Virus record (IMG/VR): IMGVR_UViG_3300008261_000093
Coordinates: 1-52,461 of that record
Source: a virus
Length of the DNA: 52,461 nt
Direction: 5' to 3' (one strand)
Below are positions 5,542 to 39,032 of this stretch, piece by piece. The number at the start of each line of letters is the position of its first letter. Within the stretch, counting starts at the first letter, position 1. The notes beneath the pieces are model-generated. The model saw only the letters and a program-made list of their open reading frames with translations, searched no databases and was not told where the DNA came from. Made by a program: the position numbers and the translations under genes.

Positions 5542-5848
5542 TAGGGGTGGGTGTCGATTTGGTGGGCTGCTAGCTGTGAATAAGAAAGCCGAAAAAGTCT
5601 CCACTTGCCACATCCTCGATTGTCGGCTTAACCACCCGTGTGTAGTGTACTTGAGTGTTGTGCAGATGCAACAGTGAGGTGTGAGTAACATATTTGTTAC
5701 GTTAAATACCTTTAGGTAATGTTTATATTACACAACTGTGTCTGTATAACGTGTGTATAGTCATATTTTTACCGGGCGCATTACGGCCAATACGTAAGCA
5801 TAGCCCCCGCCCCCCACCCCCTCTGGTCAGGGGGGTGTCCCCTTAGCC
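5542..5848. promoter_or_regulatory. Divergent control region with palindromes
   Basis: No convincing gene lies here. It holds two clean operator-like palindromes 11 bases apart: TACCT-TT-AGGTA (5707-5718) and ACACA-AC-TGTGT (5730-5741). A G/C hairpin ACCCCC/GGGGGT (5816-5836) lies just before the structured RNA. The stretch 5700-5770 is AT-rich and is the likely place for the start of rightward transcription, though I see no convincing -35/-10 pair there. A plausible-looking open frame at 5455-5691 has no family features and overlaps the HNH start and promoter. Confidence 0.5.
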
Positions 5849-6285
5849 CTCTGCCTATGGTGTAGGTCGCATCACTTAGTGTTGTGCCTATATCGCAGAG
5901 TATCGCTACGGGTTGGTCTATACCTGAGTATCCTTTAGACTATGGCGGGTAGGTTGTCCGTGCTGAATGTTGAGTCATTCTGATACTTAGTAAGCACAAT
6001 GGATTTGCCGAAACCATGCGGGAGAGTATCCGTGCAAAAGTGAGCAGAATACCGCTTACACACTAGAGCGAACCGCACCTGACCTAGTTGTCAGGATTAG
6101 GGTGGATTACCTGAGATAGCCGAAGTGCCTCAAGTAATATGCGTATCCCCCCTAAGTGTCGCAAACAATGGCAGACACAGGCACAGGGTTATGATGAGAT
6201 TCCTAGCCCTGACTGCAAAGTATCTAGGTCAAACCTCGGATACCCATAACAGTCAGGGTTTTTCCCCCTCGCAAGAGGGGTTTTT
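5849..6285 (+). ncRNA. Candidate large structured non-coding RNA
   Basis: About 437 bases with dense, mostly perfect stem potential and no convincing reading frame. Stems in order: CTCTGC 5849-5854 with GCAGAG 5895-5900, enclosing a GCAT/CAC hairpin with UUA loop; GTGCT 5960-5964 with AGCAC 5993-5997, enclosing GAATG/CATTC; CCTGAC 6078-6083 with GTCAGG 6090-6095; TTACCTGAG 6107-6115 with CTCAAGTAA 6129-6137 (one mismatch); GTGTC 6156-6160 with GACAC 6174-6178; CCCTGACTG 6207-6215 with CAGTCAGGG 6250-6258, enclosing GTATC/GATAC and AGGT/ACCT. It ends in an intrinsic terminator. Large ornate phage RNAs of unknown function (GOLLD, ROOL) are known, but I cannot show this belongs to either. It does not look like tmRNA, RNase P RNA or a group I intron. 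The 5' end is uncertain. Confidence 0.6.
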
Positions 6286-6287
6286 AT
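6265..6287 (+). terminator. Intrinsic terminator of the structured RNA
   Basis: CCCCTC-GCAA-GAGGGG stem (6265-6280) with a GNRA loop, followed by TTTTT. It ends the structured RNA and separates it from the first early gene. Confidence 0.85.
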
Positions 6288-6315
6288 CAAGTGCTTTAGC
6301 AATAGAGTGCTTGAT
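6286..6315. promoter_or_regulatory. Inverted repeat before the first early gene
   Basis: ATCAAG (6286-6291) and CTTGAT (6310-6315) form an inverted repeat. AGTGCTT also occurs twice in direct orientation within the stretch. It may be an operator; no clear -35/-10 pair is seen. Confidence 0.3.
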
Positions 6316-6342
6316 TCTGACTAACTAACTTAGGAGTAAATC

Positions 6343-6864
6343 ATGGCTCTACTTAACGCCAAAGACCTCGAATCAAAAATTGCAACAATCGGTAAAACTG
6401 CTGGTGAGTTGCAGTCTGAGATTCAAATCGCCGCTGTAAATGCAATCGGCTACTCTATCGAGCATGGTGATATTCGTTACGGGCAAAAGTTGTTTGATGT
6501 TTTGCCTACGGGTGTCCGTCGTGCTAGTTTGGTGGCTTTCCTTGAAAAGCATGGCAATTTCTGTTATCTCAAAGATGACAAGAAGTTTGCGTTTTACAAG
6601 GCTCAAGATTCCTACGATGAAGTTGCTTTATTGGCTACCTCGTGGGCTTCTGCTAAGGCTGAGAACATCACATCTGAGTATGATGTGCAGAAGATGTTTG
6701 ATAGCCTCATGAAACGCATCGAGTCCGCTATCAAGAAATCTGGTGATGGCTCGGTCAAGGTTCTCAACACACCCCTGTATGACTACCTACAAGAAGCACA
6801 AGACCGCTTCAATGTTGAAAAGAATTTCGTTCAACCTGATTCAGTCGAGCAAAAAGTAGCGTAA
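6343..6864 (+). CDS. Early protein of unknown function
   Basis: 173 residues, soluble and mostly helical. TAGGAG lies about 8 bases before the ATG. It is the first rightward gene and lies directly after the structured RNA and its terminator. A perfect palindrome that could end its transcript follows at 6876. I recognise no family or catalytic motif. Aromatic and charged residues around 85-105 (GNFCYLKDDKKFAFYKAQD) suggest a folded core. Its position next to the RNA makes it the best candidate for an RNA-associated protein, but that is speculation. Confidence 0.75.
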   Translation: MALLNAKDLESKIATIGKTAGELQSEIQIAAVNAIGYSIEHGDIRYGQKLFDVLPTGVRRASLVAFLEKHGNFCYLKDDKKFAFYKAQDSYDEVALLATSWASAKAENITSEYDVQKMFDSLMKRIESAIKKSGDGSVKVLNTPLYDYLQEAQDRFNVEKNFVQPDSVEQKVA

Positions 6865-6875
6865 TCTCGCACCCT

Positions 6876-6895
6876 GCACCCCCCTAGGGGGGTGC
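6876..6895. terminator. Perfect 20-base palindrome after the first early gene
   Basis: GCACCCCCC-TA-GGGGGGTGC, nine-base arms. It would form a very stable hairpin in RNA from either strand. The downstream tract (TCATCAAAT) is not a good U-run, so it may be a pause, RNA-stability or weak terminator element. Confidence 0.55.
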
Positions 6896-6929
6896 TCATC
6901 AAATCCACAACATTCATGGGAGTTATCTT

Positions 6930-7103
6930 ATGGGTTATGCCCTTCAATGTCTTAAGTTCGCTAATGCAGTTGTCCCCAAAGGTGCGTATGCCAACAAGTC
7001 GTATGCCAATAAACGGGATAACAAAAAACCATCTAGTGTAGAGATATACAAACCCAACGCATCGGGTGCATTAGAACTTGTAGTCCGTGTCAGCATTAAA
7101 TGA
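6930..7103 (+). CDS. Small basic protein with an internal repeat
   Basis: 57 residues from the ATG at 6930 with GGGAG about 6-8 bases upstream. The protein contains a short tandem repeat, AYANKSYANK, and is basic (Lys/Arg/Asn-rich). Family unknown. Its position between a hairpin and the octamer-repeat block could mean a DNA-binding role, which I cannot show. Confidence 0.5.
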   Translation: MGYALQCLKFANAVVPKGAYANKSYANKRDNKKPSSVEIYKPNASGALELVVRVSIK

Positions 7104-7511
7104 GTAATGTGTGTCCAATGTAGTCATGTTCGGGGTAATTATCCAATTTGAGGGTATAAAAAAACGGATAATTACAACGGATAATTACAAACCCTTATAA
7201 ATCAATATCCTAGAAGGGTAATTATCCAATTATCCAATTATCCGAAAAAAAACAATATATAGAGAATAATAGAAATGCTCTTATGGTCATGTGTGCGTGT
7301 GCGAATATATATCTCGTAATGGAATATACGGGGGGTGTTTTCGGAAAAAAACGCATTTTGGATAATTGTAATTAAATCAATGACTTCGGGTAATCCGTTT
7401 TAATTATCCGCTTTATATCCATCGAATAAACTACATAAAACCCATTCAATCCATCACATTTTTCAACAAAAAACGCTAGTGCCCACTAACCAATTTCGAG
7501 GTTCACCTATC
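7104..7511. other. AT-rich non-coding stretch, possible replication origin
   Basis: About 400 bases with no convincing gene. It is markedly AT-rich, with poly-A and poly-T runs, and carries the octamer cluster listed separately. A G-run (TACGGGGGGTG near 7327-7337) and an alternating GTGTGCGTGTGCG tract (7290-7302) lie inside. AT-richness, repeated octamers and position ahead of the early genes resemble a phage origin or a multi-operator control region. No promoter with both boxes is clear. Confidence 0.45.
7136..7409. repeat. Eight copies of octamer AATTATCC (iteron-like)
   Basis: The octamer AATTATCC appears at 7137-7144, 7220-7227, 7228-7235, 7236-7243 and 7402-7409. Its complement GGATAATT is at 7166-7173, 7179-7186 and 7360-7367. 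The three central copies are exact head-to-tail tandems with an 8-base period. Several copies extend to TAATTATCC. Clusters like this bind replication initiators or repressors. All copies are seen directly; the function is inferred. Confidence 0.8.
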
Positions 7512-24412: not shown

Positions 24413-27352
24413 ATGAGCACCCTTGAGTTTTTCAAGGCGATATTACCCGCCGAAGGAACTTATTTCCTCGCAATATTTAAACCGGGTAGTAAAGCACCAG
24501 CACACAAGGCTTTTACAAGTCTTGAGGATATGGCTCATGCCGTGGCTGAGATCGAACAGAAAAACCCAACATGGACTACCTATCATGCATGCTCTTCATA
24601 TAAAGACAAGTCTGTTGATGTAGGTGGTAAAAAGAAATATAGGGTGTCTGAAAACTGGGACAAAGCCAAAGCATTTTGGTGTGACATTGACTGCGGGCAA
24701 GACAAAGCAGACGAAGGTAAAGGGTATGCCACAAAAAGGTTAGCCGCTGAAGCACTCGTAGGTTTTTGCAAACAGACAGGGTTTCCTGCACCGATGTTTG
24801 TGGACTCTGGTAACGGAGTTCATTGTTATTGGCCACTTACTAAAGCAATCCCATCAGCCACATGGCAGAGAATGGCTTTTGCAATCAAAGCGCTGTTTGA
24901 CCACCATGGTCTTTTAGTCGATCCATCTCGTACCGCAGACTTTGCATCTATTCTTAGACCAGTTGGTTCTTTCCATAAAAAGGGCGAGCCAAAAGAAGTC
25001 GTGTGCAAAAAGACAACTGACTTAATTGATCCTAGTGAATTTGCCGAAAAGATTAAAAGTCTTGTGCAAGACATTAAAGTAGAAAAGCCAGTCCAAAAAT
25101 TTGACGCAGACAACGACGATCTACTTGCACATGCTCCAGTAAGTATGCCCACATCAGCGATTGAGATTGCTAAGAAATGTAATCAGGTTGCCGAGATGCG
25201 GGATATGCGTGGCGATGTTAGCTACGAGCAGTGGAGAGGTGTAATTGGAATTATCAAGCACTGTACCGAAGGTTCAGAATTAGCCCATGAATGGAGCGCG
25301 GGTCATCCAAACTATACGTATGAGGACACACAATACAAGTTTGATTCTTGGAATACCCCGCCTTCTACATGTGAGTTTTTCTCTAAATGCAATCCAAAAG
25401 GTTGCGAAGGGTGCTCACACAAAGGCAAGATTACTACCCCGATGGTATTGGGTCGAGTTGTTGAGCAACAGAAAGAATTAGTTGTAGAAGCCCAAGTCGA
25501 TGGTAAAACCATGGAGTTTCAGATTCCTGAGTTCCCAAAAGACTATAAATATGAGAATGGTCAGATGGTTCGTTACATGCAAGATAAAGATGATATTTGG
25601 CATGCTTTCCCATTTGCTCCTAATTTATTCTATCCTGTCCATCGAGTGAAAAAAGAAGATGATACTTTCAGCCTTAGACTTAGGTTACATTTGCCTGATA
25701 ATAGAACTCGTGAATTTACTATTGATACTAATCTACTGGCTTCAACTCAGAAGTTACTAGATGGGTTAGGCGAATATGAACTTTTCCCATTGACAACAAA
25801 AGATGCACCTAATCATATGACTGCATATCTAAGACACTATTTAGAAAAGCTGAAAGGCGAAGCTGAAGAACTAAACACCATGACCAACTTTGGTTGGCGA
25901 GAGGATCTTCAGTCATTCTTAATTGGTGATCGTTTATATCATCGAGATGGAACAATCCGTAAAGTTCTTATCGGTGGCTATGCTAAAGATAAAGAGTCTT
26001 CGTTCCCACCACCACGGGGTACTACAAACGGCTACGCAAAAGCATTGAACTTTTTGTACAACAAACCAGGGCTTGAGTATCGGCAGTATGCGATTGCTTC
26101 GGGGTTTGGTTCTATCCTGACACCATTTGGGGATTCGTTGTACAAAGGTTTACTGTTTGCTTTGACTGGTGCAAATACATCAAAAGGTAAGACCACCTTA
26201 TGTAGAGCAGTTCTGTATGCGTTTGGTAACGCAGATAAGATGACCATTAAAACCGACAAAGGTGCTACATTAAACGCACGTAATGCTCGGATGGGTACAT
26301 ACAACAACATCCCATTCTTGTTTGACGAACTTACCCATATTGATGCTGAAGAGTTTTCCCAGCTTGCCTACACCGTATCATTAGGCGAAGAAAAAGACCG
26401 CTTGACTGTTAGCCGTGGTAATAACGGAACTCGTATGGCTACTTCAGGTAGTTGGGCTATGTGTCCTTTTGTAACAGCAAATACAGATTTACATTCAATC
26501 CTTGCCACGAGGGGTGACACCCAAGCAGAAGCAGTTCGTTTAATTCAGATTCGTATGGATCAGTATCAGATGAGCGACCTAAAAGGAAGCGAAGTCACTG
26601 CCGCCATGAAACAGATTGAACTAAATATGGGAGCTGCGGGCGAAGAGTTTGTAAAGTATGTCGTAACTCATATCGAAGATGTCCTTGAACTTATGGCGAA
26701 GTGGGGCAAGCGTATTGAGAAAGACATTCCTGATCTTAAGTATCGTCTGTATAGAGCTCATGCAGTTTGCTCAATGACTGCGATGGAGATTACAAATAAG
26801 TTAAATATTACTGAATTTAATTTAGAAAGACTATACGAATTTGCAATGGGTCTATTCCATGATTTAGCAGAGATTGTTAATGAGCGGAATACGATTACTC
26901 CTGAAGAAGGCTTGAACCGTATGGTTACAGACTTATCTCCTCGGGTTATTACGACAGTTGAATATCGTGATGCACGTGACGGTCGGGGCCCGGAAGACAT
27001 CAGGTACAGTAGTAGTCATGCTCCAGTTGGTCGGTATATTACAGGCAACTCCAATACCAAAGACAATCCATTAGCTGGCAAGTTGTTCTTATGTCGTAAA
27101 GAAGTTCTTGACTGGTGTGATCTCCAGCGGGTAGACTTTAAAAACATGATGTCATATGCACATCAAGCTGGCTTTGTAGTTGAATGGAAAGAGAAGTTTA
27201 CGATTGGTAGAGGTACTAAGGTAGCTACAGGAAACACACGTTGTATAGTTCTTGATTACGAAAAGATGCAATCAGGTAGCTCATCAGTACCAAAATTAAC
27301 CGTACACACGCTAAAACCTGTACAGTCTAATGACACAGCTGTAAATAATTAG
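24413..27352 (+). CDS. PrimPol primase fused to a helicase (DUF927-like ATPase)
   Basis: 979 residues. The N-terminal archaeo-eukaryotic primase domain has FWCDIDCG (D91, D93), VDSGNGVHCYWPL (S132-H137) and the FASILRPVGSFHKKG segment. A PriCT-type helical part (about 255-320) has EQWRGVIGIIKHCTEG and a CNPKGCEGC zinc-like cluster. A P-loop GANTSKGKTT lies around residue 585-594, followed by FLFDELTH (Walker B) and a TANTD sensor. The C-terminal ATPase resembles DUF927/superfamily 3 helicases. It would prime and unwind phage DNA for the PolA enzyme. It is the last rightward gene. Confidence 0.88.
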   Translation: MSTLEFFKAILPAEGTYFLAIFKPGSKAPAHKAFTSLEDMAHAVAEIEQKNPTWTTYHACSSYKDKSVDVGGKKKYRVSENWDKAKAFWCDIDCGQDKADEGKGYATKRLAAEALVGFCKQTGFPAPMFVDSGNGVHCYWPLTKAIPSATWQRMAFAIKALFDHHGLLVDPSRTADFASILRPVGSFHKKGEPKEVVCKKTTDLIDPSEFAEKIKSLVQDIKVEKPVQKFDADNDDLLAHAPVSMPTSAIEIAKKCNQVAEMRDMRGDVSYEQWRGVIGIIKHCTEGSELAHEWSAGHPNYTYEDTQYKFDSWNTPPSTCEFFSKCNPKGCEGCSHKGKITTPMVLGRVVEQQKELVVEAQVDGKTMEFQIPEFPKDYKYENGQMVRYMQDKDDIWHAFPFAPNLFYPVHRVKKEDDTFSLRLRLHLPDNRTREFTIDTNLLASTQKLLDGLGEYELFPLTTKDAPNHMTAYLRHYLEKLKGEAEELNTMTNFGWREDLQSFLIGDRLYHRDGTIRKVLIGGYAKDKESSFPPPRGTTNGYAKALNFLYNKPGLEYRQYAIASGFGSILTPFGDSLYKGLLFALTGANTSKGKTTLCRAVLYAFGNADKMTIKTDKGATLNARNARMGTYNNIPFLFDELTHIDAEEFSQLAYTVSLGEEKDRLTVSRGNNGTRMATSGSWAMCPFVTANTDLHSILATRGDTQAEAVRLIQIRMDQYQMSDLKGSEVTAAMKQIELNMGAAGEEFVKYVVTHIEDVLELMAKWGKRIEKDIPDLKYRLYRAHAVCSMTAMEITNKLNITEFNLERLYEFAMGLFHDLAEIVNERNTITPEEGLNRMVTDLSPRVITTVEYRDARDGRGPEDIRYSSSHAPVGRYITGNSNTKDNPLAGKLFLCRKEVLDWCDLQRVDFKNMMSYAHQAGFVVEWKEKFTIGRGTKVATGNTRCIVLDYEKMQSGSSSVPKLTVHTLKPVQSNDTAVNN

Positions 27353-29117: not shown

Positions 29118-32100
29118 TTATAGCTCCGATGTTTGGCGAACAAAGCCACGATTAGCCTTGTTAGTTTGTACCCCGCCAACTACACTTCTTTCACGTTTAG
29201 CTTGTTCTTGTGGAGCTTTCAGTAGTATTGACAACGATTGTCTTTTAAATCCATTACGAACTCTTGACTGTTGTAGTTCTTCCCAATCATTTCGTGCATC
29301 TGATAGACCCACTCCACTTCTATACGCACGTGCATACGCACGTTTGATTTCGCTGGCCTTATCATTATAAAACTTCTCGTACTCAAACTTGGCATTTTGT
29401 AAAAATTGTTTATCGGTCAACTGCTTAGTAGGTAGCCCAATTCCGGCCATAAATGCTTCGGCAAAGCTAATATCCTCTGCTGGGATAAGTACATCGTCTC
29501 TACGTGATGTAACCCCTTCAGTGGCAAATCTATAGCCCTTCATGGCATTGGCTACACCGGTAGGCATAAGCTGCTCTAAGCCCTTGTAGTAGTCCCCCTG
29601 ACCCATTAATGATATGCCGTCAGCGGCTTTAAGGGTTAAACCACCGAATGGGCCGGTCATTAGGGCAAAGCCTGCTTCGGCAACACCCCTACGGCTAAAG
29701 TCTATATCTGTATATGGCAGGATTGAGAGCATCTGACCCATACCGAGCTTGCCCGAAAGGTCTACACCCAAAGCTGCAGGCACACCCTTAACTATTAAGT
29801 CTGCAAGGGTATCATCGCCAATAGCCCGACGCATAGCCAACTCTGGGTTATCAGGCTCATCCTCATCTCCAAAGACCAGACCATACAGGAATGATAGAGC
29901 CGCAAACCCTGGTAATCCCATTACCCCGCCCATAGCTGCGGTATGTCCAATTGTAAACATCAGGGCGCGGCGACCAATTCTGCGGGTATCTGCATCTTGA
30001 CCTGCAAATGCGTCGTTAAATAAGCGAGCCATCAGGCTTAGCTGGATAAGCTGGAACTTACGGAACTGGGTAGCTAAACGACCTAAACCTTTACGACTAA
30101 TACGTGGAGCATTAAATCCACTGTAGTCACCATGGGTTCTGTAGATTATGCTGTCAGCGTAGTTAATAGCATTGGCTTTATTGTTAGTTCTAGCCTCAAG
30201 ACGGTACGCAGCCACTGCAGTTGCTACACGGTTAATGGATTCAATGTCTTGGGCAATCCCACGGAGATATTCAGTAGCACGACCAAACTTATCTAACTTA
30301 GAGTCTTCAGTAGATCTCCAGCGTCCTAAGTCCTGCTCCAGGCTAATGTCAATTCTTCCCCGGTTAACCAGTTCTTCGACAACATCCTTAACATCCTGTG
30401 GCAGCTTGTTATAACTGTCTTCGCCAAGACCATGCCTACGAATAACGCTGGCAATATCAGTATACGCACGAGTAAACTCTTTCCATGACTTATCGTAGCC
30501 ATGCTTAGCACCGACTACTGGCAAGGACATCATGAATGGCTGAGTCATGTTCTGTAAATAGTAGGATGGGTTAGTTAGTAACATCCATACAGAAGTCGTA
30601 TTTAAAGCCTTATCAATAAATGGCGATGGCTCGTAGTCTAGCCCCATTACATGACGCTTCATAAACTCGTTGTAGTACCGGCTACGTTCTGCTCGAGTAC
30701 CTTCTGTGCCTTTTCTGGCTTCCTCTTTCATATCCCGTAAAGAGTCATAGATCTCTTCAGAATTCTCTAAAGACGAGATAAAGTGGGCTGTAGCACGGCC
30801 TTGCGTAGCAAATGCACGCATCATATCTTTTTCAGCACCGGCAATCTTACGGCGACGCTTCTCAGACTGGCGAGCAGACTGCTCAGACAACAGGCTTAAA
30901 TGAAGATCGGATAGTAAGCGATTAATCGTTCGTTCAGACTTGTCAGTAGTGTTGCTGTCTTGGGTGTCGGCTATTTGGTCAGGGGCAGACTTGGGGTTAT
31001 CCCTAATGCTTTCCTGATCTAGGTATGCCTGTGAACGACCAACAACTACATAATTACCAAAACGCTTAAGTGGAGCGTAAGGACCTTTATTTCCCATACG
31101 CATCAAAGTTCTGTATTCAGCTAACGAATTGGCTTTTTTCTTAGTAAGTTCGGCTACTTCAGTAACATCACCGGCTTTTTGCGCTGCAGCAATTAATGCA
31201 TCGTATTCGGTATTGATGTTGTTAATAACCGCATCTTGCATTGCCTTTAGCGTCTGGCGCCCATGATCAAAGACTTCTTTAATAAGGTTTTGGGCTACTA
31301 CAGGGAATGCTTCAAAACGAGTTTTTAACTCTGGGTCAATCTTCGAACCCTTAATGTTAGCGTCATAACCCCACTCACCTTTCATGGTTGAGTCTTTAAT
31401 AAATGCGTTTACGCTATTCTCGCCAACACCCCTTACCTCATTTGGTAAGGCATCATACTGTTGCAAAATCTTATCGATACGACGCTCAAGAGAAGTCCTA
31501 ATTGCTTGCTGGGCTTTTACCAACTGAACATAGCGTTTTGCCGATGGCAGATATTTAGATGCTAAGTCAGCCAAATCTTCGGTAAATGCAGCAAATGGTA
31601 AGCCCTTCTTAGCAAAGTCAATGATGTTATCGGTAATTGCTTGTAATGGACCACGGATTGGCTTGGGTAGTTTTGCTACCTGCTGGGCTGCTGTTTGACG
31701 TGCGGCATTTAAACCTGCTTTGGAGAACTGTACTTTTTCTGTGTCAGCACCAACTAAAGACAAAGCACGGAAGATGTCTTCGTCGCTAAACATGACGATG
31801 TTTTTGGTAATTCTTTCTTCCGATGTATTTTTACGAGATGTGGCATCTTTAAATTGATTACCTTTAATACCTTGTTCATACAAAAACTGAGACACTACCC
31901 GTTGAGCTTGTTGTCCAGAAGCTAATACTTCTTTGTCTTTTACAGCTTTAACTAACCATCGTGGATCACCTAAAGCAAGAGCTTTTATACCAAAATAAAG
32001 GTCATGTCCTGTGGCTTCTTCTAAAAGTACTCCAGCATTACCTAAAGCTGCCTCAATAACCATAGCTTGGTCGTCAGGAAGATTTTTTAAAATGTTGTAG

Positions 32101-35100
32101 ATATATGGCTGATCTTTAACCTTCTTATCAAGATCAAGAAGCTCTTCTGGACGAGCATTAATATCCACCCGCATTAAATTACCAGGTACGCCTTCAGTAG
32201 CTGTAGAAAAATCAATTGGATTTAGCTTGTTTAGCGCATCAATAAAGCGCTGATTTGTACCACTTCTGGTACCAATATCATTATTGTCGATACGTTTTTG
32301 CCAGCTTTCAATTTCAGCTTTAATAGCTTGCAAAACAGTTGGATTTTTTACAGATAATCCCATCATGGCAGATACAGGACTTTTCATGCGTCGTATAACA
32401 TCAAGAGCTACGTTTGTCTCAATATCATCACCAGTTTTACTAAAAGTAGCCATAACTGATCTACGCAGGTCTCTAACAGACCGGCCTTTGTAGCGATAGC
32501 CTACATCTTTAGTTTTGTTTTTAACATCAGTTTTCCAGTACTGATATGCAATTCCTGCTTTTTGAGCAAGATATGTACCCCAACCAAAAGCTTGAGCACC
32601 TTCTCCAGTACCCATAAATCTTTGGTCAAATCTACGGAATGAGGCTGCAGTACCATGCCATGTGCCACCTATTTCTAGTCGTGCGGCACCATAAGCAATA
32701 TTAATAATGTCCTGAGCGTCAATTTTGTCAGGATCAAACGTATTCAAACGACGAATTGCAGTTTTAAATGCAGCCCACAAAGTACGGAACCAACGGCCTA
32801 ATTGGGTATCAGGTTTAGTAGCGGTTGGGTCTATGTCGTGTAATACAGCTTCTTCTATAAAGTAAGCAATTAATTCTGTATTAGCTTGTTCATTTTCAAC
32901 ACCTGTAGAACGCTCTAACGCTTTTTTAGCAATTACTGACTCAATAGAACCGTCATCTTTTTTAGCCCACTCAAGAACAGTATCTACTAAGTAGTCAAAC
33001 TGCTTCTCTGTAAGCATCTTTTGGATGCCTAAATGTGAGCCTACTTCGTGCATAAACACAGCACGTGCTGTGCCTGGCTTAATATTATCTGCAATCAAAT
33101 ATGCTTTATTTTTCCAAACAAACGCTTGGTCACCGGCTTTAGGATTGGCTGCAATTTTAGCGTCAAGAGGCAAGTCTTTTACCGACTGGAAGACTTCTAC
33201 ACGACGAAGATTTTCACCACCAATAAAGTCTTTTAACTCTTGGCGTATTTCTTCAGCGTTGGAACTTTCGCCACGTTCAACAGCTTTAGAAAACTCTGGT
33301 TTATTGCGCTCAAAGACAATATTCATGTCGGCAAGTTTTGTATTACCAGTTTCTACTGAGGCTTGCCAATCATCTTGTACTTCTGGAGATAGCTCGTCGT
33401 AAGTAGGTAGCCCATACTGCTCAGCTTTAGTGTCCCACTCTTCTCGTGCTGTTTCTTCTAGCGTCCTCGCGCTGACTTCTTCATCGGCTTGTTCATCTTC
33501 TGTGGCAGCTTCGACCCTTTCGGTGTCTTTGCTTGGAACTCTCTTGCCAGTTTCGGCTTGTTTGCGTACAGGAACCCCTTTTGTGCTTCGCTTTTGAACG
33601 GCATTTTTCTCTTCTCCTTTACCAATACGAATCTCTTCGCGGCGGTTAATTTCTTTAACAATGGCTTGAATTTCTGCGTCTGTAATACGCTCATCAATAG
33701 CTAAGTTGTTGAGTTCAAAGTCTTTTAAAGCCTGTAAACCCTGCTTCTTAAACTTCTGATAAGTTCTGTTTGCAGCCGATGCATCCTCAAGTTCAGTAGC
33801 TCCGCTTTCTTGTGGGTTAAATACTCTAAATCCAGAAGCACCACCACCTTCTTTTTCGGTAGTTTCTTCACGACCTAAAGTCTGCTCACCCTCAGCTTCC
33901 ATAGCAGCATCTTCAGCCATGGATGGACCAGCCTCATCTGATACAGCAGCCTCACGAGCAGCCGCAGCTTCAAAGTCTAAGTCTTGCTCAGTAAGTGTTT
34001 CGGCTTCAGTAGCAGCTTCAGTTTCAGCCGTAGCTACAACCATTAGGTTATAAATTTGATCTTTTGTATAACCTAGGCGTTTAGCCGCTTCAAAAATACG
34101 AGCACCCCAAGTCTCTTGAGCTTTTGGCCCAGCAATTTGAGCAATACGAGCATCAGATACACCATACTCATCCGCAATCTGTACAGAGGTCTTTTCCCCT
34201 GTAAGGTATTCCATAACAATACCGCCATCACGAGTACCGAACGCTGAATTAACAATCGTTCTAATTCTCTCAATTGCCTCTAGGCGGTCGTCAGGAATTA
34301 CTTGCGTTTCTTGCTCTTGCCCAACACTGGGAATGGCATTATCGCCCCCACTGGTACTGGGCTCAACCCGTGGTCGTACACTTCCTGGTCCGACATCTTG
34401 GACTGTACTCGGGAGTATAAGGTTGCTTCCTGTCCCGACGGGTCGAATTTGGTCGGGTCGTACAGGCCCAACGAGTCCACCGCTTGTTTCTGCTGCTCTT
34501 CCTTGCTCTGGTACTGCTCCCACCCCGGTAGGCACTCGCAATTGCTGCTTTTCATTTTTTGCTCCTTTAGTTGTGTTTGTTTCGGATGCTAATTGCTGAA
34601 GGGCTACAAAAGCTGGTGCATCCTTACCAGTTAAAGCCTTATAAAAATTGTTGAGCTCATCGGCTTCTTTCAAAGCTTTTGGGCCTTCCAAAGTACTAAT
34701 TAAAACCTCTGCACGCTCGGCAGCTTCTGCTTTATCTGCCGAAGTATCGATACCCCACTCAGATAAGAATTTAACTGCAGCAGCATTAACAGCCTTGGCA
34801 GTAGACTTAAGAGGTACTTTTACAGCACCAGAAGATAGAGTTGCGCCAATAAGCGACTTTTGCTCTGGGGTCTTATCTTTATTAAGTGCGTCGAGCTCTG
34901 CCAAAAACTTAGTTGCATCAGCCTGACTAAATAGTGTTTTCCCTGCAATGTTATAACGACCAGCTACTTGAGTTGGCTGTACACCATAGGTAGAGGAAAT
35001 CTCGTCAAATGCAGCTTGAGTTTCTTGTTGTTTTTGAGCAGCTTGTTGTTGTGCTACTTGGGCTGCTTGCGCTTGCTGCGCTGCAGCAACTTGTGCTGAA

Positions 35101-36212
35101 GATGGTACGGGTGGGCCGGCTTGCTCAGGTGGTTGTGGGCCAACTAATGCTTCTCTTGGGGGTGGGCCGACCAGAATTTCTGAGCTATTAGCGTCAATAG
35201 CTTTATTAATAGCATTTTCGTCAGGGGTTTTACCCTCACCAGTACTGATGTTAGTAGAGCCAGGCAATAGACTATTAGGTGCAGTAACTCTATTTAAAGT
35301 ACCGACAACGGCGCCAGTACCACCGCCCAATAAACCACCTAAAGTAGCTGAGCCAATAACACCACTTAAAGGCTGAATAGTAGGAGCAAACTCACCTGCG
35401 GCAAGGTTAGCAGATAACTTAGTAACACCTTCTTCAACAAATTCTGAGCCTGCTTCAGCTGCAGTTGTTTTTAATATGCTTTTTGTACCAGCGGCAAATG
35501 CTTTATCAGCACCAACTAAACCTGACGCTGCACCAATAATAAATGGTAGTGGGGCTGCACCTCTAGCTGCACGGGTGGCAATCTGCTCACGCTCTTCAAT
35601 CGGTAAGTCTTGTAGTTCAGGAGCATTCATTACCATTTGGTAAGCATCGCCAGACGCATCACCACCTGCAAGAACACCACCGGCAGTACTACCGCCAGCT
35701 AAACCAGCTCGGGCAACACCTCTCTCGGTTAGACCAAGGGCGCCACCTATCATTCTTCCACCTTTAATTGCGGCACCTGGGCCAACAAAACTACCAATTG
35801 CTTGGGATGCGGCTAATAAAGGATTTTCTTTTACATATTTAAATGCACCTGCGGCTTGTTCACCTAAGTCTTCGGACTGCATTGAACGACCAAGTTGATA
35901 CTTAGCTTCGGCTGCAGTAAGTGATTGTTTCTTTTCACCTTCTTCAATAAAGCGACCGATAGCAGCAGAAGTTTCTGTGCCTGGTTTTACTAGATCAATA
36001 GCTGCTTTGGGTAAAGATGCTACAGCATTTCCAAACTCAATAACATAATCGTTAGCTGCGCCTAATACACCTCGTTTTTCGGATATACCTAAATAGCCTG
36101 CTACTTCCATGGGGGAAAGACCAGTTAGCTCGACCCCTTTATCTAAGATCTGTCGATCAGTTAGGTCTTTAGCCCATGGTGCTGCTTGGCGAATATCGTC
36201 AAACAAAGACAT
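29118..36212 (-). CDS. Giant polyvalent protein (ADP-ribosyltransferase-like, zincin-like)
   Basis: 2364 residues, the longest gene here. Residues about 130-320 are Gly/Ala-rich and hydrophobic and could enter or cross a membrane. A Gln/Ala-rich linker (about 350-400) and a region-4-like helix-turn-helix (about 643-720, SVQIADEYGVSDARIAQIAG) follow. A variant zincin motif HEVGSH is at 1055-1060. An ADP-ribosyltransferase-type segment begins WHGTAASFRRF (H1186) and continues GAQAFGWGTYLAQK. The C-terminal third has long helices and hydrophobic stretches of the LPD38/PLxRFG type. Such polyvalent proteins are thought to be packaged and ejected with the genome to act on the host early. Two small genes are nested in its linkers. 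Confidence 0.85.
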   Translation of the reverse strand: MSLFDDIRQAAPWAKDLTDRQILDKGVELTGLSPMEVAGYLGISEKRGVLGAANDYVIEFGNAVASLPKAAIDLVKPGTETSAAIGRFIEEGEKKQSLTAAEAKYQLGRSMQSEDLGEQAAGAFKYVKENPLLAASQAIGSFVGPGAAIKGGRMIGGALGLTERGVARAGLAGGSTAGGVLAGGDASGDAYQMVMNAPELQDLPIEEREQIATRAARGAAPLPFIIGAASGLVGADKAFAAGTKSILKTTAAEAGSEFVEEGVTKLSANLAAGEFAPTIQPLSGVIGSATLGGLLGGGTGAVVGTLNRVTAPNSLLPGSTNISTGEGKTPDENAINKAIDANSSEILVGPPPREALVGPQPPEQAGPPVPSSAQVAAAQQAQAAQVAQQQAAQKQQETQAAFDEISSTYGVQPTQVAGRYNIAGKTLFSQADATKFLAELDALNKDKTPEQKSLIGATLSSGAVKVPLKSTAKAVNAAAVKFLSEWGIDTSADKAEAAERAEVLISTLEGPKALKEADELNNFYKALTGKDAPAFVALQQLASETNTTKGAKNEKQQLRVPTGVGAVPEQGRAAETSGGLVGPVRPDQIRPVGTGSNLILPSTVQDVGPGSVRPRVEPSTSGGDNAIPSVGQEQETQVIPDDRLEAIERIRTIVNSAFGTRDGGIVMEYLTGEKTSVQIADEYGVSDARIAQIAGPKAQETWGARIFEAAKRLGYTKDQIYNLMVVATAETEAATEAETLTEQDLDFEAAAAREAAVSDEAGPSMAEDAAMEAEGEQTLGREETTEKEGGGASGFRVFNPQESGATELEDASAANRTYQKFKKQGLQALKDFELNNLAIDERITDAEIQAIVKEINRREEIRIGKGEEKNAVQKRSTKGVPVRKQAETGKRVPSKDTERVEAATEDEQADEEVSARTLEETAREEWDTKAEQYGLPTYDELSPEVQDDWQASVETGNTKLADMNIVFERNKPEFSKAVERGESSNAEEIRQELKDFIGGENLRRVEVFQSVKDLPLDAKIAANPKAGDQAFVWKNKAYLIADNIKPGTARAVFMHEVGSHLGIQKMLTEKQFDYLVDTVLEWAKKDDGSIESVIAKKALERSTGVENEQANTELIAYFIEEAVLHDIDPTATKPDTQLGRWFRTLWAAFKTAIRRLNTFDPDKIDAQDIINIAYGAARLEIGGTWHGTAASFRRFDQRFMGTGEGAQAFGWGTYLAQKAGIAYQYWKTDVKNKTKDVGYRYKGRSVRDLRRSVMATFSKTGDDIETNVALDVIRRMKSPVSAMMGLSVKNPTVLQAIKAEIESWQKRIDNNDIGTRSGTNQRFIDALNKLNPIDFSTATEGVPGNLMRVDINARPEELLDLDKKVKDQPYIYNILKNLPDDQAMVIEAALGNAGVLLEEATGHDLYFGIKALALGDPRWLVKAVKDKEVLASGQQAQRVVSQFLYEQGIKGNQFKDATSRKNTSEERITKNIVMFSDEDIFRALSLVGADTEKVQFSKAGLNAARQTAAQQVAKLPKPIRGPLQAITDNIIDFAKKGLPFAAFTEDLADLASKYLPSAKRYVQLVKAQQAIRTSLERRIDKILQQYDALPNEVRGVGENSVNAFIKDSTMKGEWGYDANIKGSKIDPELKTRFEAFPVVAQNLIKEVFDHGRQTLKAMQDAVINNINTEYDALIAAAQKAGDVTEVAELTKKKANSLAEYRTLMRMGNKGPYAPLKRFGNYVVVGRSQAYLDQESIRDNPKSAPDQIADTQDSNTTDKSERTINRLLSDLHLSLLSEQSARQSEKRRRKIAGAEKDMMRAFATQGRATAHFISSLENSEEIYDSLRDMKEEARKGTEGTRAERSRYYNEFMKRHVMGLDYEPSPFIDKALNTTSVWMLLTNPSYYLQNMTQPFMMSLPVVGAKHGYDKSWKEFTRAYTDIASVIRRHGLGEDSYNKLPQDVKDVVEELVNRGRIDISLEQDLGRWRSTEDSKLDKFGRATEYLRGIAQDIESINRVATAVAAYRLEARTNNKANAINYADSIIYRTHGDYSGFNAPRISRKGLGRLATQFRKFQLIQLSLMARLFNDAFAGQDADTRRIGRRALMFTIGHTAAMGGVMGLPGFAALSFLYGLVFGDEDEPDNPELAMRRAIGDDTLADLIVKGVPAALGVDLSGKLGMGQMLSILPYTDIDFSRRGVAEAGFALMTGPFGGLTLKAADGISLMGQGDYYKGLEQLMPTGVANAMKGYRFATEGVTSRRDDVLIPAEDISFAEAFMAGIGLPTKQLTDKQFLQNAKFEYEKFYNDKASEIKRAYARAYRSGVGLSDARNDWEELQQSRVRNGFKRQSLSILLKAPQEQAKRERSVVGGVQTNKANRGFVRQTSEL
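33458..33604 (-). CDS. Nested small basic protein (MPFKSEAQ type)
   Basis: 48 residues, read in another frame inside the polyvalent gene (its codons 870-918). AAAGGAG (33620-33614) lies 9 bases before the ATG at 33604. The sequence MPFKSEAQKGFLYANKPKLA, then FQAKTPKGSKLP, closely matches a small basic protein that occurs as an ordinary gene in many tailed phages. That match in an overprinted frame is very unlikely by chance. The host frame here encodes a low-complexity, charged linker, so it tolerates the overlap. Function of the family unknown to me. Confidence 0.75.
   Translation of the reverse strand: MPFKSEAQKGFLYANKPKLAREFQAKTPKGSKLPQKMNKPMKKSARGR
34298..34555 (-). CDS. Nested small protein in the polyvalent gene
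   Basis: 85 residues, same alternative frame as the other nested gene, covering polyvalent codons about 553-638. AAAGGAG (34568-34562) lies 6 bases before the ATG at 34555, an ideal ribosome site. The peptide is protein-like, not shadow-like: MKSSNCECLPGWEQYQSKEE, then DPTKFDPSGQEATLYSRVQS and a VGAIMPFPVLGKSKKRK tail. It fills exactly the linker before the polyvalent helix-turn-helix. Family unknown. Confidence 0.65.
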   Translation of the reverse strand: MKSSNCECLPGWEQYQSKEEQQKQAVDSLGLYDPTKFDPSGQEATLYSRVQSKMSDQEVYDHGLSPVPVGAIMPFPVLGKSKKRK

Positions 36213-37603: not shown

Positions 37604-38335
37604 TTAAATCTCCAATATCTCGTGGATTCCAGCCATGTCAAGTGCTACAGCTTGGCTAATTTGTCTAATAATACTCGTTACTTCTTTATGTTTTTCAGGG
37701 TGAAACTTTTTAATATACTTCATGCGTTCTTTGCTATCCCCACAATAAGCAGTGCAATTCCAGCAATCTAAAGACGAATGAGCCATGCTCAAACGCTCAG
37801 TAATTTCTACATTATTTGCTTCTAAAAACTTAGTTACTTTACTATTATCCCAGTCTTTTATGGGGAAATAGTATTCAATACCATCAAAAGTATCACCTGA
37901 TTTAAAGGGAGAACGATGAGCTTCATCAGATCGCTGTCCACGAATAATAGCTGTTACTCCTAGTTTTCTAGCTATATCATCAGCTGGCTTCCAAAAGTTG
38001 TCGTGGCAACAATCCATGTAACTGCGAATTTTAATTGGTTTACTTTTAGTACAAGCTTGACCATATGAAGAATAAGAAATTGGAACTATATCAGCAGGAT
38101 AGCCGTGTTTTGCTATAGAAGCTGGCTGGTCAGTTTGGACTTCAAGAAAATTAGGTACAGAGCTACGAATTACTTTCATCATTTCAATAATTTCTGGAAA
38201 CGCTGCGCCTGTATTAACCCAAATAAGAATCGTTTTATCCAAATAGTCTTTTATTAGGTGCAAACAAGCAAGCGAATCACGCCCACCTGAAAACATCAAG
38301 GCTACTTTTTCATGACGGTTAAAAAAATCTTTCAT
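37604..38335 (-). CDS. PP-loop enzyme, PAPS-reductase/DndC-like
   Basis: 243 residues from the ATG at 38335; an earlier start would overlap the upstream gene. The PP-loop ATP-binding motif SGGRDS (16-21) follows VALMF. WVNTGAAFPEIIEMM, AIIRGQRSDEAHRS and FPIKDW are typical of the phosphoadenosine-phosphosulfate reductase fold. A Cys-rich C-terminal part (LDCWNCTAYCGD) could bind a metal or take part in redox chemistry. Relatives include CysH and the DNA-phosphorothioation protein DndC. It is unusual to find one among virion genes; the substrate is unknown. Confidence 0.85.
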   Translation of the reverse strand: MKDFFNRHEKVALMFSGGRDSLACLHLIKDYLDKTILIWVNTGAAFPEIIEMMKVIRSSVPNFLEVQTDQPASIAKHGYPADIVPISYSSYGQACTKSKPIKIRSYMDCCHDNFWKPADDIARKLGVTAIIRGQRSDEAHRSPFKSGDTFDGIEYYFPIKDWDNSKVTKFLEANNVEITERLSMAHSSLDCWNCTAYCGDSKERMKYIKKFHPEKHKEVTSIIRQISQAVALDMAGIHEILEI

Positions 38336-38360
38336 TAGTAAGCTGTAATAGCCGCTCCAC

Positions 38361-39032
38361 CTAAACTTGATTACCAAATTGACCTTGAGATAGAGCAATT
38401 GCATCCATTTTCTTAGCCCATCCTAACTGCTCAGCCGCAGTACGGGCACGATTAGCAGCCGCAGAACCAACCGCAGCTTCCATAATAGAGTTAACATTAC
38501 CTGTAGATACAGAACGACCAGATGTTGGGTCAATACCAAAAGACTGTAAACGACGCTGCTCATCGGCTGCCTTAATACCAAACGCAGATTTAACATCGCC
38601 AAGGGCTTCGGAAGCTATACGCTCACGATTTGCGTCTGTATCATAGTCGGTGGCAGCTTTATAAATGCTTTCACGCATTGGCTTGCCTTTTGTTTCAAAC
38701 TCTTCCATGGTTTTTTTAGCAGAACTAATCTGCATTTCTTGGAGTTCTCTATCTAAAGCAAACTGCTCATCTGCTCGTACGTCTTGTTTTTCCGCCTGTT
38801 CTTTTATTTTAGGCCAAACATCATTTTTCCAATTATCTAAGTACTCTCTAGAAATCTTAGCCATTTCTTGCTGAGCAATACCAATATTGGGATCTGGAGC
38901 AGGAGCAGAAACACTGGCTCCGCCACCGCCTTTACCACCACCTTCAAGTGTCATGCCACGGGCAAAAGGCCCAGACCCACCACGGGGGGAAAACGCCCGC
39001 TCGGGTAGCATCGATTCTAAGTCGTATCTCAT
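38361..39032 (-). CDS. Probable internal virion / ejection protein
   Basis: 223 residues. A Gly/Ser/Ala-rich N-terminus (about 18-45) is followed by long helices with coiled-coil character (ISREYLDNWKNDVWPKIKEQ, SSAKKTMEEFETKG), and an Ala-rich C-terminus (MEAAVGSAAANRARTAAEQL). The pattern resembles small internal core proteins of podoviruses that help build the ejection channel. No motif gives direct proof. The end leaves a 25-base gap to the PP-loop gene. Confidence 0.6.
   Translation of the reverse strand: MRYDLESMLPERAFSPRGGSGPFARGMTLEGGGKGGGGASVSAPAPDPNIGIAQQEMAKISREYLDNWKNDVWPKIKEQAEKQDVRADEQFALDRELQEMQISSAKKTMEEFETKGKPMRESIYKAATDYDTDANRERIASEALGDVKSAFGIKAADEQRRLQSFGIDPTSGRSVSTGNVNSIMEAAVGSAAANRARTAAEQLGWAKKMDAIALSQGQFGNQV

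Follow-up and report, generated by a model that had tools for sequence, protein, structure and literature searches.

A predicted new family of large structured RNA heading the early operon in a group of phages

The put leader of phage HK022 is an RNA of about 65 nt with two stem-loops, and the large RNAs GOLLD and ROOL often lie near a tRNA island, a setting that is usual for them rather than required. HK022 putRNA can act on RNA polymerase as a leader RNA alone (PMC9378689). In leaders of the boxA type, boxA is the binding site of NusB/NusE, and the Nus complex keeps Rho from terminating transcription; complexes of this kind, formed with boxA, protect untranslated RNA from Rho (PMC4807359, PMC5725501). 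Among the large RNAs, ROOL env-120 measures 659 nt and many GOLLD exceed 800 nt (PMC12286853). Here we describe a structured RNA found in the 52,461-base virus record IMGVR_UViG_3300008261_000093 (the window), and compare it with these systems.

The window carries a leftward block with portal (SU10 type), terminase and tail genes, and a rightward block with DNA polymerase A, SNF2 helicase and primase-like genes, which we infer to be early from its gene content and layout. The RNA sits in the gap separating these divergent late and early blocks, on the early (+) strand, and is immediately followed by the first early gene (6343-6864, +), a phrog_1448 member of unknown function (PHROG E 4e-29). 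Pfam and PDB searches with its protein returned no relative, and the structure model is of low confidence (pLDDT 56). No phage RNA polymerase was found in a non-exhaustive scan of the window proteins, and the window contains no tRNA genes. Further into the early side, positions 7130-7420 are AT-rich and non-coding, with repeated GGATAATTATCC-like words, possibly iterons or a replication origin; repeat-rich gaps occur at a similar position in KPP25 (26300-26890) and Vibrio VA-RY-3 (6780-7240). On the minus strand, a 2364-aa protein (29118-36212) resembles DarB-like antirestriction proteins (phrog_10089) over its C-terminal part, and a PAPS reductase domain gene (37604-38404) lies inside the late block.

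The 437 nt between 5849 and 6285 fold at -152.9 kcal/mol (z -4.43), a stability that none of 100 shuffles equalled; the opposite strand gives z -3.39. Relative to its composition, 6001-6400 (+) is the most structured of 106 sampled 400-nt segments covering both strands (z -6.63, against a mean of -0.63 and sd of 1.57). The longest open reading frame inside the stretch codes for 67 aa from a GTG start, and no frame is conserved, as the longest one shifts both frame and strand across 12 relatives. The stretch is almost certainly a conserved structured RNA rather than a chance fold. It probably begins 5' of position 5849, where the initial annotation had placed its start, as judged by a conserved C-rich tract and an upstream element (see below); the RNA as a whole measures roughly 430-520 bases.

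Relatives were gathered in successive scans, which used first the neighbouring protein and later conserved RNA motifs and an alignment of the proteins. This yielded 12 distinct close copies (the window, L002, L003, L004, L010, L011, L012, L034, L036, L023, L025 and L027), whose neighbouring proteins are 56-98% identical to that of the window and whose RNAs vary enough for structure testing. R1, a covariance model built on the 3' domain, recovered all 12 of them and nothing else in its first search. When applied to 80 related contigs collected by terminase alignment, it picked up four members that are more distant, L123 (64.7 bits), L119 (47.4 bits; L120 carries the same RNA), L110 (37.6 bits) and L099 (26.3 bits, E 0.007), each at the corresponding place. 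All loci found by the model lie upstream of an early gene, on its strand, and the family is present in at least 16 virus contigs. Model matches to L130, L111 and L100 were weak and not significant; on reading, these leaders have the same order of C-rich tract, leader, P1, (C)AAA, inner hairpin, CCATAG and P1'.

Outside this group, the region had no blastn match among annotated phages, a scan for the 3' signature pattern in the genomes of 84,980 species found none, and model searches of KPP25, Rollin, RHph, Vibrio VA-RY-3 and Autographiviridae leaders gave no real match (best E 0.29). Nine pattern matches (L028-L033, L037, L038 and L041) were rejected on reading as coding or unrelated sequence. 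In L002 the central domain of the RNA (L002 positions 6004-6148) is swapped for unrelated sequence between nearly identical flanks, which suggests modular exchange within the RNA.

The folded elements are spread over the whole stretch, with about ten covarying helices across 400 nt. In the 12-sequence alignment (A4), 92.7% of the cells are paired as compared to 77.7% in shuffled alignments, with a covariation score of 0.399 versus 0.115. The 16-sequence alignment (A7), which was fitted to the model and leans towards it, gives 95.2% versus 66.1% and 0.771 versus 0.201, and its score falls below 0.15 when partners are slid by 1-3 columns. Helices outside the 3' domain were placed by hand, a procedure that leans towards structure; for six of them (A1, A3, B2, C1, C3 and D) each variant pairs 100% with its own strand and 47-62% when the strands of the variants are swapped.

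The 5' end is predicted to form a long hairpin, CTCTGC...GCAGAG (5849-5900), with a variable apical part in which CATCAC..GTG is replaced by GAGG..CCTC or CGC..GCG in relatives. Helix A1 (5915-5920/5936-5941; eight variants in 12 sequences, 60% paired when swapped, 6/6 columns doubly changed) closes the near-invariant loop TACCTGAGTATCCTT, of which all but one base is kept in the distant L123. Helix A3 (5960-5964/5993-5997; five variants, 4/4 columns doubly changed) carries the conserved loop TGAGTCATTCTGAT (5971-5984), which is also kept in L123. A branch closed by GCGG 6018-6021 and CCGC 6073-6076 encloses B2 (6040-6045/6054-6059; seven variants, 49% when swapped, 5/5 columns doubly changed). 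It is followed by C1 (6078-6083/6090-6095; five variants, 5/5 columns), by a length-variable hairpin composed of C2 (6097-6102/6150-6155) and C3 (6106-6110/6134-6138; six variants, 47% when swapped), and by helix D (GTGTC/GACAC, 6156-6178), which covaries around the A-rich loop GCAAACAATGGCA.

In the 3' domain, both sides have changed in 22 of 24 base pairs among the 16 sequences. Here P1, the 9-base stem of the initial annotation (CCCTGACTG at 6207-6215 with CAGTCAGGG at 6250-6258), surrounds P2 (GTATC/GATAC, 6220-6224/6239-6243) and P2b (AGGT/ACCT, 6226-6229/6233-6236). P1 is doubly changed in 10/10 pairs with 99% of cells paired, which makes it the best supported helix in the alignments, and P2/P2b in 8/9 pairs with 95%. 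The internal loop between P1 and P2 (CAAA 6216-6219 and CCATA 6244-6248) is kept in distant leaders. GTTATG 6188-6193 is complementary to CATAAC 6245-6250 and may form a pseudoknot; both are invariant in the 12 close relatives, giving no covariation either way, and are not clearly kept in distant members. The compensatory changes seen in this alignment of related phages bear out the picture of a large, dense, non-coding RNA that heads the early operon and ends in a terminator, and the coordinates first given for the 9-base stem, its inner stems, the terminator and CAGGG were all exact.

A DNA-level element, such as an origin, a packaging site or regulatory repeats folding by chance, is hardly credible: an upstream palindrome and the C-rich tract do lie in the gap towards the terminase, but terminators tied to one strand, and many helices maintained by compensatory changes, are features to be expected in an RNA rather than at a DNA site. 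Only slightly less improbable is a ligand-sensing switch, in which CAGGG (6184-6188) would pair with CCCTG as an alternative to P1, as had been proposed from the window alone. AGGG/CCCT complementarity is found in 12/12 sequences, and a T run follows P1 in most of them. However, only these four invariant pairs are retained; the next pair is broken without compensation in 6/12 relatives, whereas P1 is 100% paired and fully compensated in 12/12, and distant members keep P1 but do not all keep the alternative. The mutually exclusive, conserved stems of a riboswitch-like attenuator were thus not found, and the switch claim is not supported.

Upstream of the folded region, a GTGTGTATA element (5750-5761, +) with a -10-like TATAGT (5756-5761) in an imperfect palindrome is conserved in all relatives read, reading TATAAT in L010. 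We consider it a candidate promoter with a start site at about 5767, albeit lacking a convincing -35. The C-rich, G-poor tract follows at about 5803-5822 and is shared by the 12 close relatives and the distant leaders. At the other end, an intrinsic terminator is predicted from CCCCTC-GCAA-GAGGGG (6265-6280) and TTTTT (6281-6285). Within the close group such a separate hairpin is limited to the window, L002 and L004. P1 is directly followed by GGGGTTTTT in nine close relatives; in L004 the T run is lost (GGGTTTCCCC after P1) and the separate GCAA hairpin with T5 supplies the terminator, and the window and L002 have both P1 with a T run and the GCAA hairpin. In L110 and L123 this place is occupied by unrelated terminator hairpins, and among the leaders read no terminator was found before the gene in L099, L100, L111, L119 and L130. 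Between terminator and gene lies the 13-bp hairpin E (6286-6315), followed by the conserved TCTGACTAACT; it is 100% paired with few changes in the 12 close relatives, has similar counterparts in distant leaders, and might be a processing site.

If the terminator at 6285 works, free RNA must also be made, which keeps alive the main rival to our preferred reading. By this rival, a large RNA ended at 6285 would accumulate early and, by itself or together with a protein, act in trans on a target of host or phage origin, much as GOLLD or ROOL might. We regard it as possible, at appreciably less than even odds. It accounts for a 3' end of the RNA's own, gained differently at the same place (P1 with T5, the GCAA hairpin, the unrelated hairpins of L110 and L123), and for an elaborate fold with near-invariant loops; GOLLD, ROOL and OLE are likewise large RNAs of poorly understood function, which form RNA-only assemblies (PMC12286853). 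Against it, the RNA always lies directly before the first early gene on the same strand, L099, L100, L111 and L130 lack a terminator, and the window offers neither a tRNA island nor an Rfam match.

Reading the distant leaders revealed GCTCTTTAACAATT. The boxA core CTCTTTAACA has one exact occurrence in each of L099, L100 and L130 and two in L114, whose contig was sampled twice (L115 represents this leader as well). These five exact matches in four phages, all on the leader strand, compare with about 0.14 expected by chance for the 147 kb scanned at uniform base composition. With up to one mismatch allowed, there are 15 matches on the leader strand versus 4 on the other; L111, L119, L158 and the leader of Rhizobium phage RHph_TM3_14A (L056, 17765) have one-mismatch sites. 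The window itself differs from boxA by at least 3 mismatches, none being found within 2, and the same holds for its group with the exception of L027 and its two sites, of one and two mismatches. None of the seven boxA-bearing leaders (L099, L100, L111, L114, L119, L130 and L158; homology of the L114 and L158 leaders is assumed from position) has a terminator before the gene, and the terminator-bearing leaders (the window group, L110 and L123) lack boxA, except for the one-mismatch site of L027. The two features therefore appear nearly to exclude each other among the leaders read, which come from few, related phages and are uncorrected for kinship.

It is this opposition between a terminator in the window group and terminator-less boxA leaders in seven related phages that leads us to favour a cis-acting early-operon leader governing read-through by RNA polymerase, to which we assign a probability of about 0.45. 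Host RNA polymerase would start at about 5767 and make the leader first; the target of the folded leader, acting in cis, would then be the elongation complex or Rho, and the leader would set what share of polymerases continues beyond its 3' end to the early operon. In the window group, the 3' helix or the added hairpin would cause intrinsic termination, most transcripts being released as free RNA, about 430-520 nt long, while some polymerases read through into the early operon. In the sister phages, which lack a terminator, boxA would instead recruit the host Nus complex; an RNA that is C-rich, 500 nt long and not translated is one that Rho could be expected to act on. The covarying helices, the placement of all model loci before an early gene and the boxA/terminator pattern agree with such a leader. 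On the other side, the window lacks boxA, the RNA is far larger than a put-like element needs, its near-invariant loops hint at a partner of greater complexity, and free RNA released by termination could act in trans. Taken together, the invariant position and the boxA of relatives point to a cis leader being at least as likely as a free ornate RNA.

A further alternative is that the RNA is a partner of the adjacent phrog_1448 protein, in a ribonucleoprotein or an autoregulatory pair. Large non-coding leaders precede members of phrog_1448 in unrelated Autographiviridae phages as well; yet in several phages another small gene stands between leader and phrog_1448, the next gene looks different in L114 and L130, the protein matches no RNA-binding family, and its model is too poor to judge. 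We consider this pairing unlikely.

The unannotated early leaders of the cultured Autographiviridae phages Aeromonas LAh5, Klebsiella 6937 and Acinetobacter phiAB6 resemble the window RNA in being about 350-550 nt long, non-coding and upstream of phrog_1448. They are unmatched by covariance models R1 and R2, and the likeness is offered as analogy, not homology. One candidate for homology, GCGG...CCGTGCAAAA, common to the window and Klebsiella 6937, was rejected as it is not colinear with other shared words and is missed by the models. In Aeromonas phages (L073, L070, L076-L080), a conserved non-coding early leader, 320-360 nt before phrog_1448, is matched in 25 Aeromonas records; its alignment contains an H-type pseudoknot with 4/11 pairs doubly changed. 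The Acinetobacter Friunavirus early leader (L061, 1216-1575) is about 350 nt long, non-coding, conserved in 152 phage records and without an Rfam match, and starts at a TTGACA-17-TAAGAT promoter. An exact boxA core (GCTCTTTAACAAT) is found at the start of the early region, upstream of non-coding leaders, in Yersinia, Klebsiella and Escherichia Autographiviridae phages (L062, L063, L067, L068 and L071). The best cultured relative by DNA polymerase, Rhizobium phage RHph_TM3_14A, has a structured, non-coding 500-nt leader at the same place (L056, 17680-18185; z -3.17), with no detectable sequence similarity to the window RNA.

The family adds a well-supported large RNA outside Rfam, with clear structural constraints for probing or cryo-EM, and the boxA/terminator exclusion together with the Aeromonas, Klebsiella and Acinetobacter leaders makes a role of early leaders in the control of host RNA polymerase testable. 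If released, the RNA would join the small set of ornate phage RNAs of open function. A broader, rather doubtful scenario is that a new class of large RNA is the first product of these podophages in the cell, its P1-CAAA-P2-CCATAR core having been switched between boxA-protected read-through leader and terminated free RNA; together with the analogous Autographiviridae early-gene RNAs, it would represent a general, overlooked RNA-based step of takeover.

How, then, does the RNA compare with known systems? In Rfam, no family scored at gathering level, and relaxing the cut-off to E 10 brought up nothing credible; literature searches turned up no structured early leader for these phages. The suggestion of a new or divergent large phage RNA stands as far as novelty is concerned, since by sequence and model comparison the RNA appears to be a separate new family; membership in GOLLD, ROOL or OLE, whose Rfam models are unmatched in a window with 0 tRNA genes, does not. 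Like GOLLD and ROOL, it is large, ornate, phage-encoded and of unknown function, with its own 3' end in the window group; unlike them, it is shorter, tied to the early operon and away from any tRNA island, and shares no sequence or model match, so that the resemblance is one of size and elaboration only. With HK022 put it shares the position of a structured leader before phage early genes, upstream of an early gene and on its strand in all copies and presumably transcribed by host RNA polymerase; instead of put's short fold of two stem-loops it has 400+ nt, many helices and its own terminator, and antitermination is a putative role here. With rrn leaders and their boxA Nus antitermination, the link is the boxA of related phages (exact in L099, L100, L114 and L130) in long, untranslated, structured leaders (PMC5725501, PMC10250234), whereas the window has no boxA and no rRNA. 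By analogy, the RNA plausibly works like HK022 put or an rrn leader while being, on present evidence, a member of neither.
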